A DNA stretch of 64,000 nucleotides, taken from assembly GCF_003473485.1 (NCBI RefSeq), contig NC_053044.1:34414091-34478090 (forward strand), read 5' to 3'. The stretch comes from Medicago truncatula (taxonomy: Eukaryota > Streptophyta > Magnoliopsida > Fabales > Fabaceae). The translations under genes and the position numbers were made by a program. Shown one piece after another: positions 28,747 through 63,400 of this stretch. The notes under the pieces were generated by a model, which had not been told where the DNA came from, searched no databases, and was given only the letters and a program-made list of their open reading frames with translations. Positions within the stretch are counted from its first letter, which is position 1. Each line of letters begins with the position of its first letter.

Positions 28747-31537
28747 TTATTCAAAGAACTGAACTTTGATGAAGACGGCCAAAGCTATTTGCAAGAAAAA
28801 TGCAGCAATTATGGCCACTGAAAGATCATTTCCTATAAAAGACCTTAGGTTCAAAGAAACGAAGCTAGCTGAGGCACCACCGGTAAGGATTATTATGATC
28901 CACCGAAGAATCTCAACTGGAATAAGCAATAGAAACTGAAAAATTCACGAGAAACAATTATTAGATAAAAACATGAAAGGCAATGCATAAATAAATCAAA
29001 ACTAGCAAGCCAATACATGCTTGTGCAAAAGGTAATGTAATATATAGTAATTTGCAGCATATAGCGATAAAACAACAAGCCATACACAGAAAGCGGAAAC
29101 TTACAGAAGACAAGATGAAAATGGTGAGGGAATACCCCCACAAGCACCAAAACCGTACAAGGTTAGCATTTGAACCCATATACTGAAGGAAAAAGTAGTA
29201 TGCCAACGGGACCACTATCACATAGCCATATATAGACCATGCCGCCGTATTCACATAGCTAACATCAAAGCTCCATGATGTTCTGTTATTTGTATGTTTT
29301 TCCATTAGGTATGTTGCAAAATTTCCAAGTAAGGCAAGTACAAAAACCAATGTTGTTGAGATCCATATAAGCCCATACCTGTAATAATGGAAAAGTATCA
29401 AGTAGAAAGTAAGGAAGTAATACTTTCATACTTTATTACTACAGTCTTGGACTTTATGTAGGAAAAAAGAATACAATAGTAGCTATCTCATTAGTTAGGA
29501 CTGGTAAAGACAATATCAAACAAAATTAAGAATAAAATAAAATCATGGAGGATCAAATCAAACTTTTGCCGATTCTCTTGCATATCGCATTACCAGATAT
29601 ATTTATATAACAGGGACCATTATAGAGTCATAGTATATAATAATTTGACCCACAAATGGAAAAAAATTAAGAAAAAACAAATATAACCTAGCTCCTCAGT
29701 AACTCTCTTTAGCTACTGACAATTTTAAGGTATGTACATGATTAATATTTTTGAAGATTTGAAATGCCATTAATTCCTTCATTCCAATATGGCTGGATCA
29801 ATATATTTATGGAATTAGTAGAAATCATCATTTCAATATATCTTCCTCCATTATATGGCAAAGAATTAAAATGTAATAAAACAAATATCAGAAATTTATA
29901 CATTTTGGGCAAGGATGCTAAAAGAATTTGTTAAAAAGTACATCATGTCTCCCATTAATTGGTATATTTATAGTCCCCAGGCACCCTAAGTTTGCATAAA
30001 ACAACAGCTTATATTTGCGTTATTCAGCAACCGCTGACTTTCATTTTCTCAAATTCCAATTAGGGAAGTAATAATTTTGCATGGGTCCACAATGAACAAT
30101 GGACCAAACAGAAGGCAAGAAGAAAAAGGGGGTGGAAGTGGAAGAAGCAAAAGGAAAGTTTCACTTTTCCCCATAAATGTTATTGTGACAGCGCAACTGC
30201 AGATTTCCTTCAAGCACCGCATACTCTACATGAAATCAAGATCAGTTTTGCCATTTTAGTTATCAAAAATGTAGCAGCAGAAATATAAAATGCAGAACTC
30301 ACAGATCAGGGTTAGCATCTATCTTGGCAAAAAAGTCATCACCGACTGGATTCAAGGAGCTTATCAATCTGTTCACGACAACGTCTGTATCCACGTTGAA
30401 ATACTGTGTGTACGATGAGACACTAAAGAATCCCTGCCAGTTATTAGCTGGCTGTTGCCCAAAAGCATCTGCATGGATGAATAAGCCACGTATCCGTGAT
30501 TGATCAATATAGCATAGATTGGTAATAAAAATGTAAGATTACAACTATTCTCTAATCAGTCTACATAATCAACCGTCAGTATTAATCATCTATCGGCCAA
30601 AGTATGCAACTGAAAACAAGCTCATTCAAAATCCAAAAAACAAACTGCATAAAATGCTGCAACCATATGCAACTATTAACTGAATAAAGCCATAACTAAA
30701 CATATTATGTGAAACACCTTATTCAATTGGTTTAGACTTTAGATCGCTCGTTGTCTAAGATAGGTAAAAGCCTAAAATTAAACAAACAAAAAAGACTCTG
30801 CGTGCACAGTAGTGATCACTTCTTAGCTTATTAAATCAAGGCTCTGCCCAAACATCGACTACCAAAATGTTTTGTTTTTTCTCCTCGCAAGTCATAACCC
30901 ACTCCCAAAAAAGGACATACTATACACCAAAGTTTCTAAAATGGTAAGCCATAAATTATATAAATGAATTTCAACTTTCATCAAGTATTATCAGCTAATT
31001 AAGTTTGATAACATTACTTACCAGTTGGAGTTCCAAGAGTTTGATATCCCTGTTGTCCACCACCGCCTCCGCCTCCACTATTGGGAGGGAATGTTTGCAT
31101 ATTTGCATAAGGGACTACATGTTAAGTTCATAAATATTAGATTAGGTTAATAAATATATCAATTATCAAGTGTGGCAACTTATTAATCATCTACTAAACT
31201 TTATTAACCATGAGTTAAACGCAATAAACTTTGATTTTTAAGTATTCAAATATACATGCAATTGAAACACCTGAAAAGAAAAACAATGATGTAATTTGAT
31301 ACCTTGATTGTTTGAAGCATTCTTTTGATCAACAATGACAGCCTAAGTACCAAAAGAGGAATAATCAGATAATTATAGATAATCAATTAATAAACTAATA
31401 GAGAATATATATATTGAAAAACCCAAAAAAAAAAAAAAAAAAGCTATAATTGCAAATTGATTGATATGAATACTCACTGGAACTGATCCGAGCAAATGGC
31501 TGGTATTGCTGCTACTGGTACGAGAATCTTCCTCCAT
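28747..31537 (-). CDS. YIP1 domain family membrane protein (YIPF1/YIPF2-like), intact copy
   Basis: Yip1-family proteins are small polytopic Golgi/ER membrane proteins that bind Rab GTPases and act in vesicle traffic. Six exons join in frame (31478-31537, 31303-31342, 31022-31114, 30303-30468, 29105-29378, 28747-28935), giving 273 residues, the usual length. The cytosolic N-terminus has a Gly-rich run (NSGGGGGGGQQGYQ), then the family block SYTQYFNVDTDVVVNRLISS and NPDLYGLIWISTTLVFVLAL. About five membrane segments follow, the last being LSVAIIAAFFLQIALAVFIK. The start MEEDSRTSSS is preferred; an in-frame ATG ten codons upstream (31565-31567) is possible. The tandem-duplication breakpoint at 28849 lies in the last exon, but this outer copy is complete. 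Confidence 0.88.
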
Positions 31538-31738
31538 AGAAACCAAATAATCGCTACGAGTAATCAAAAAAATTAGAAATTGAAATTCGTTAATTGGAAA
31601 ACAGTAGAATCGCTATAAACCCTTGACTTTTCAGGTTAGTTCAGCAGGTGAAACTGAATAAACGATGATTTCATTCATATTGGGCCCACGGGCCTCGTGA
31701 TGTCAGTTATGAAGTACAAAAAAAGAAGAAAAAAAAAT

Positions 31739-60334: not shown

Positions 60335-60426
60335 CCACACGCGTGTGTAAAGTACTAAAAGCACGTACAATTTTCTTCCTACATCCAATTTTCTTTAAAG
60401 AAGAAAGAGATTTTTGATTCAGCAAC

Positions 60427-63400
60427 ATGGGTTGGAGAGGATTATTGGGTTTTGAATATGGCATAATTCAGGCACCACTAGGTCCTGATATCTCTGGTCC
60501 TCAACTTGTTGCTGCTGTTGCCAATGCTGGCGCTCTTGGCCTTCTCAGGGCCCCTGATTGGGTTGGTTTGCTTCTTCACTCACCCTTATAATTAAGTTAT
60601 TATTATTATTATTGATCAACACTTCACTCATACATGTGATTGTTATAATATTATTACTATTACTATTACTATTACTATATTTTGCGTTTGTGTACTCTCA
60701 AGTTTTAACTTTTAACTTTCAAGTCTTCAATTTTGTTTCTTTCCACTTTCCCTTTTTTGTATTATCATATGCATACAGTGTAATTGTGTGTATGTATGAA
60801 TATGTAGGAATCACCGGATTACTTGAGGGAGCTTATTAAGCAGACCAGGACCTTAACTGATAAACCCTTTGGGATTGGTTTAGTTCTAGCTTTTCCTCAT
60901 GAGGAGAACTTGAAGGTCATTCTTGACGAAAAAGTTGCAGTATTGCAAACTTATTGGGGTGATTGTACAACGGAATTGGTTGCTAAGGCTCATTCAGCTG
61001 GGGTCAAAATTGTTCCACAAGTTAGTCTTATGCCACCCTATTTCTAATTTTAGCTTTCCTTTTGATTCATATACAATTTATATTATTTTGCTTATATTTA
61101 TCTGATGCATAACTAAAATTAGGCCATGTTTGGATAAACAACTTAATTAAATTAAGTGCTAAGTGCTTATCATATAACTGATTGTGTATACCTTATTTCT
61201 ATAACAAAGATAAAAAAGTTAAATTGTTTTAATATACGCTATAAATTATTATGGATAACTTATGAAAGCTGAAAACCGATTATGAGCATCTCATAAATTG
61301 TTTGCATAAGCTCTCTTACACAATCCCACAAGTGTTTGTGTCAGTAGGTAAACTCAAACAAGTGAATCCAGACAGTTCCTTAGTCTAGACTGTTTAACTT
61401 ATAAATTCAAAATACTTAACATGATTGTCAATTTACAGAAAGTGAACATCTCAGCCTGTTTTAATTTTTATTACATACCTGTTTTGGAATAACTTATAAA
61501 TGCTAGCATTGCTGAGTTTATAGGTGATCCTTATTCCTAGTAGACCAGTTGCTTGACTTAAGAAACTTGGCTGCTAAGTGTATGTTATTGTTGCATATTG
61601 AGAAGTTATTTTCATTCTGTTTGGGATCTGACCTGTTACTTATATTTGTGTTTCTATTATAGGTCGGAAGTTTCGAAAGTGCAAAACAGGCAATTGATGC
61701 AGGTGCCGATGGAATCATTCTGCAAGGACGTGAAGCAGGTGGTCATGTTATTGGTCAGGTGTGCATGCTTGTCATGGTTTTGATGTATGCATATGTTTTT
61801 CAGTATAGAACTATAGATAAGCTATCTTTATCTTAGTGGTGATAAGTAAGAATAGTTAGTAATTTATTGTGTCAGTTCAATCACAGAATGTTAGAAAAAT
61901 TGCTGATATTATGTTATCATTACTTTTTAGTGGTTTTTACTATTCTTGGGAAAAGTGGTTAATGACTTACACAATACCTACTGTCACAATTGACTGCAAC
62001 GTATGTTTCATATTATAACACTTGTGTTTGATAGGAAAATATATTTGAAAGATGAGTTGTGCTTAGTTCTTGATAAGCCTGTAAAATATCCCTGAAAACC
62101 TCATGATCTGTTCAGCATCTTTATTCCCAGGTTCAATTTATACCTAAAAACTTTTCGATCATTTTTCTCCTGATCCAATAAAATTAGCAAGAAGCCTTAA
62201 TTTGAGGAGGTAGGGAGTTAAAAAGAAAATTTTCATATTTGATGTTTTTCTGTCATAAATAATGAGTTTAGTGCTCGGCGCCTATTTTTTCCTCCCATCC
62301 ATAGTTAAAAAACAATTATTGTTAAAATGTGGCTTGTTCAATCTTGTCAGTGAATGGCAGTAACTTACATATGCAATGTTCATACCCTTTGAAGGAGGCA
62401 ATCTTTTATTGTTGGTCATTGCTTTAATGATCTTTAGTAGCAGATGTAAATGATAGCTAATCATTATTTCCATCCTATTCCTTTCCATTACAGTTGATCA
62501 TAGATTTTAGTATTCCCCCCGTGTTTTATTGCAGGATAATTTAATTTCATTGGTGCCGAGGGTGGTCGATCTTGTTGGGGACCGTGATATACCTGTTATT
62601 GCAGCTGGAGGAATTGTAGATGGTCGTGGTTATGTTGCTGCTCTAGCACTTGGTGCTCAAGGCGTCTGTCTAGGCACTAGGTACGTATTGAAATATTTAA
62701 ACTTATACATATGATAAGGATATTGCTCAATATTCTTTGAGGAGTATCTTAGAACACATTTTTATGTTTTTAAACTGAAGTACAGTTGCTGCATCCATAG
62801 CAGCCTACATTTAGGCTAATAACTTAAACAAATGTATTCCTTATCAGATCCAATATTGAATTCATATTTTGCATATTTCATCTGGGATTAATATGATGTC
62901 TAAGGAAAATGGTGGTGGAAGGGAAGTGATTTTTAATTGATTCTTGTATCATCCTGTAATTTTTGTGTAGCTCACTTCAATGATACCGTCTATTTTCTGA
63001 AGAATTTGAAAGTCATTTTGATGTTTACCCATTCAAATGAAAAGTATCTCCTGCTATGCATCCTGAAGATTAGTGATTGTGTTTTCATTTGTCCGTCTTC
63101 GTTTATTGATCATAAATGACCAGAGTTTTCACAAATTCATATTCATGACTCATGAATTAAGACCGGATTCACTTTATCGGGACACGTCTAGACAAACTTA
63201 ATTTGAATGGGACTTGTTTCTAACACTAATATTCATGCAAATGGTCTTGTTTGCAGGTTTCTTGCAACTGAAGAAAGCAATGCTCATCCTATATACAAAA
63301 GAAAGTTAGTTGAACTCAATGAAACTGAGTACACAGATGTATTTGGCAGGGCAAGGTGGCCCGATGCACCACATCGTGTCCTACAGACACCCTTCTTCAA

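Follow-up and report, generated by a model that had tools for sequence, protein, structure and literature searches.

An ordinary recent tandem segmental duplication of a plant genome is generally understood to consist of copies set head to tail, with native outer borders and one new join. Homotype false duplications, as characterized in extracts of two studies (PMC8081667, PMC9516828), are likewise made of adjacent copies. Their unit is about as long as a sequencing read, the copies show no differences of the single-nucleotide polymorphism (SNP) type, and partial genes stand at the join. These duplications often occur at contig boundaries, and one example came from a FALCON bug (PMC8081667). 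In addition, incorrect gap filling sometimes joins false copies by unsupported sequence (PMC9516828). Here we analyse a 15.8-kb tandem repeat of Medicago truncatula that lies in a 64-kb stretch of contig NC_053044.1 (C3:34414091-34478090; hereafter the window) and carries a folylpolyglutamate synthase (FPGS) gene, a tRNA-Val gene and most of a YIP1-family gene in each of its two units. It shares order, native outer borders and the single new join with the ordinary duplication, and differs from it in having no substitution between its units yet four homopolymer indels. With homotype false duplications it has in common adjacent copies, the lack of SNP-type differences and partial genes at the join, and its unit is close to a PacBio read length as judged from another accession; unlike in those cases, the join is free of N. 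We favour the reading that the repeat is an assembly artefact, namely a homotype false duplication, and put its probability at roughly 0.6.

Two units with a single new junction

Unit A (28849..44658) and unit B (44659..60468) each comprise 15,810 bp and follow one another head to tail on the forward strand. Identity at an offset of 15,810 begins and ends precisely at the borders 28849 and 60468, in line with the coordinates, equal lengths and order given in the initial annotation. The unit-to-unit junction at 44658/44659 is the sole non-native join. It is blunt, with zero bases in common across it on either side, as had been claimed from the lack of microhomology, and it contains no N. N is also absent from the rest of the 264 kb scanned, which takes in the window and 100 kb of flank to its left and right. 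In the searched genome (429,922,655 bp in 42 contigs), the 121-bp junction sequence has a full-length match at one place, the other five of six matches being partial.

The genes at the borders distinguish the native joins from the new one. An intact YIP1-family gene (28747..31537, reverse strand; reading frames and Pfam PF04893) spans the left border at 28849 with its last exon, and an intact nitronate monooxygenase gene (60427..63758, forward strand; hand-spliced model, PF03060) spans the right border at 60468 within exon 1. Since both genes are intact across these borders, only the join between the units is new. At that join both genes are partial. The YIP1 gene of unit B (44659..47347, reverse strand; its outer end is that of unit A plus the 15,810 offset) has its last 33 residues swapped for 8 foreign ones, and in unit A the nitronate monooxygenase frame keeps only its first 14 codons (44617..44658, forward strand), which continue over the junction as a 21-residue stub. 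The hand-spliced models of YIP1 (PF04893), FPGS (PF08245) and nitronate monooxygenase (PF03060) all score above the cut-offs. Moreover, three other YIP1 copies in the genome (L004-L006), all of them diverged, align through 28849 at 83-86% identity, and their similarity stops at the internal junction. Judged from these gene models, the borders of the repeat with its left and right flanks are native and 44658/44659 is the only new join. A transposon at the breakpoints was considered and rejected; the initial annotation had also seen none there, and both breakpoints fall inside coding exons, the last of YIP1 and the first of nitronate monooxygenase.

Two units head to tail, native outer borders and one new junction are what a true tandem segmental duplication displays, and they are also compatible with an artefact. 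In particular, native outer borders together with a new internal join are what one locus written twice would give.

The diverged YIP1 sequences lie at C6:8031927, C8:44143274 and C3:42130530. The last exon of the first of these (L004) contains a stop as well as a frame change, which makes L004 a probable pseudogene.

Differences between the units are confined to homopolymers

The initial annotation described the units as alike base for base. This does not hold, as four single-base indels separate them. A walk along both units finds 0 substitutions over 15,808 aligned bases, and BLASTN agrees, with 15,808 identities in 15,812 columns. Unit A has A7 and unit B A6 at 31724, T11 and T10 at 32016, T6 and T7 at 33464, and T10 and T11 at 39804, the last within an FPGS intron. 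All four differences fall inside runs of at least 6 bases, which occupy 2.5% of the unit (chance p ~4e-7). Adjacent near-identical copies without haplotype-like SNPs characterize a homotype false duplication, and this is what the 0 substitutions and 4 homopolymer indels amount to.

For comparison, an exact 60-mer scan of the surrounding 264 kb, keeping runs of at least 150 bp, yielded three other repeat pairs, all of which were compared; one 160-bp row that represented the same DNA aligned to itself was left out. In 10,772 aligned columns these pairs show 111 substitutions; homopolymer indels of 1-2 bases number 4, and indels of other kinds 6. The ratio of substitutions to homopolymer indels is thus 0:4 between the units versus 111:4 in the comparison pairs (Fisher p = 8.8e-6, in a test that presumes a ratio not strongly dependent on age, the comparison pairs being older than the units). 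In view of this contrast, the four differences are best read as consensus errors rather than as mutations. Consensus errors fit an artefact and also a real young duplication in an assembly of continuous long reads (CLR), so the spectrum alone is not decisive. A natural-looking tandem pair at C3:34358000-34372527 (L033-L034), which starts ~56 kb left of the window, was used as a yardstick; it has a period of ~7.3-7.6 kb and a divergence of roughly 1-2%, mainly substitutions.

Alternatively, the sequenced line may have undergone a real and very recent 15.8-kb tandem duplication, by blunt end-joining or a replication-based process, from the YIP1 exon to the nitronate monooxygenase exon. A second FPGS gene and a second tRNA-Val gene would have arisen in this way, with each border gene kept intact once, and the homopolymer differences would be slippage mutations or consensus errors. 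At plant mutation rates of 1e-8 to 0.7e-8 per site per generation, zero substitutions set an age limit (95%) of about 9,500-14,000 generations, and are compatible with a duplication younger than that. In addition, the assembled sequence passes through the junction without a seam, the yardstick pair with its 7.6-kb period is a real-looking tandem duplication in the vicinity, and extracts of PMC5545040 describe local duplication as common in M. truncatula. The absence of any substitution beside four homopolymer indels, however, is unlike the other three repeat pairs. We hold a real duplication to be the less probable of these two accounts, though a serious one.

If the duplication were older and its copies had been held identical through gene conversion or unequal exchange, introns and intergenic DNA would be alike without the repeat having arisen recently. 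Such a process must nevertheless have homogenised 15,808 aligned bases to both ends of the units and yet spared four homopolymer differences, and the nearby 7.6-kb tandem pair was not homogenised in this way. Our analysis found no direct evidence for gene conversion or unequal exchange, and we regard this explanation as highly improbable.

One locus written twice, or a very young duplication

The window's assembly is likely Mt5.0 (M. truncatula A17, PacBio) or a close version of it, the totals differing slightly. A rubisco profile gave no hit on contig C42 (117,500 bp), and we do not regard this contig as the plastid genome. Mt5.0 is reported, in extracts of PMC10885650, to comprise 429.43 Mbp in 42 scaffolds and 62 contigs (N50 23.3 Mb, 109x PacBio, 0.13% gaps, longest scaffold 64.76 Mbp). 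A FALCON assembly of accession R108 at similar depth has 1,073 contigs with an N50 of 3.8 Mb, according to extracts of PMC5545040. The difference between 62 and 1,073 contigs suggests that additional joining without N took place in Mt5.0, although it does not show it. Extracts of PMC6981116 describe a meta-assembly of white lupin by a group to which some of the Mt5.0 authors belong (Sallet, Carrere, Blein); Mt5.0 may have followed the same route. In the R108 PacBio data (~107x), 10% of the bases are in reads longer than 18,555 nt (read N10; PMC5545040, in part). By this figure, which comes from R108 and not from A17 reads, the unit of 15,810 bp would be of read length for PacBio technology.

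What the assembly displays directly is the anatomy of the repeat, the native state of its outer borders, and differences that consist of homopolymer indels alone. In the favoured reading, two successive assembled pieces would both have included the same 15.8-kb stretch, the first at its end and the second at its start, and would have been set head to tail without this overlap being collapsed. The join would have been made by assembly or merging software, and the four differences may be independent consensus errors on a single genomic locus. The plant would then have a single copy each of the FPGS, tRNA-Val and YIP1 genes at the locus. This reading is favoured because of the zero substitutions, a unit of about read length, the blunt breakpoints, the precedents in the literature and a contiguity of Mt5.0 that is very high for an assembly of CLR data.

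Several observations weigh against an artefact. The four differences are not clustered at the supposed contig ends, but lie at unit positions 2876, 3168, 4616 and 10956 of 15810. False duplications are mostly separated by gaps, at least in the extracts of PMC9516828, whereas no N is present here. The proportion of duplicated BUSCO genes is 2.7% in Mt5.0, equal to that of the HM078 HiFi assembly (PMC10885650, in part), which indicates that false duplication is not widespread among Mt5.0 genes. Finally, consensus errors could also be the only differences if the duplication were real and very young and had been assembled from CLR data. Because the junction lacks a gap and BUSCO duplication in Mt5.0 is not raised, a real duplication keeps its place as a candidate, at less than even odds. 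It is conceivable, if somewhat doubtful, that A17 carries a blunt 15.8-kb tandem duplication at most ~14,000 generations old and possibly private to the reference line, with FPGS and tRNA-Val doubled and the YIP1 tail swapped in unit B. A model line would then offer a gene duplication of very young age whose blunt junction is resolved at the sequence level. The initial annotation had weighed a real event of very recent date against an assembly join, its main alternative. The same two options remain, and the balance now shifts to the join, given differences that are homopolymer indels only, a unit of PacBio read-length scale going by accession R108, and the likeness to homotype false duplications.

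If the repeat is an artefact, the assembly holds a false second FPGS, a false tRNA-Val, a false truncated YIP1 and a nitronate monooxygenase stub. In RNA-seq, FPGS reads would have two mapping sites and would be dropped or counted by half, and a spurious gain would appear wherever copy number is compared with that of other accessions. This locus is not mentioned in the extracts available of PMC7508351, PMC11526573, PMC8862580, PMC9516828, PMC8081667, PMC10885650, PMC8122578, PMC6981116 and PMC5545040, and literature searches gave no statement about it among the matches listed.

Genes within the units and their copy number

Profile matches agree with the gene content proposed in the initial annotation: a gene of the FolC/FPGS family, a tRNA-Val (CAC) in both units, and Yip1. 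The FPGS gene is whole in unit A (34833..42790, reverse strand; hand-spliced model) and in unit B (50642..58600, reverse strand; paired exon matches, with the ends carried over from unit A). Against TIGR01499 (cut-off 162.65) the model reaches 340 bits, and it also matches folylpolyglutamate/dihydrofolate synthases of solved structure. We take it to be FPGS rather than dihydrofolate synthase by its resemblance to plant FPGS sequences. The tRNA-Val genes lie at 31737..31812 in unit A and 47546..47621 in unit B, both on the reverse strand.

No third copy was found in a genome search with an 801-bp FPGS query, which gave four matches and reached 100% identity only in units A and B; the other two matches are two pieces of one paralogue on C5 (71% and 85%). 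With the folC profile, 26 matches at E <= 1 were obtained across the genome. Eight of these are in the units, as four pairs spaced by 15,809-15,810 bp, and 18 are on C1, C5, C7 and C8. A genome search with the whole unit, in which 39 of 5334 candidates were scored and the units themselves were not among the matches, was swamped by two dispersed repeats and thus carries no information on copy number: 35 of its 42 listed matches belong to one of them and 7 to the other. The assembly itself is the only support for a doubled FPGS dose.

Other elements of the window and its surroundings

The first dispersed repeat, up to ~640 bp long, lies at 43281-43921 and 59091-59731. Among the 42 matches listed, 32 represent it, with identities of 83-91% and a spread over each of the eight large contigs, beside 3 short pieces. 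The second lies at 31988-33190 and at the equivalent place in unit B, with the 7 listed matches at 77-87%. A 159-residue frame within it reads like a remnant of a long interspersed nuclear element (LINE), and Pfam gave no match to this frame. Two groups of long open frames, at 9729-12517 and 23365-26352, look like transposases of the MULE/FAR1 type. To the right of the window, a 3.2-kb direct repeat pair (L043-L044; C3:34518374-34521611 and a copy ~10,421 bp further) differs by 20 substitutions and 2 indels, and possibly constitutes the long terminal repeats of a retrotransposon.
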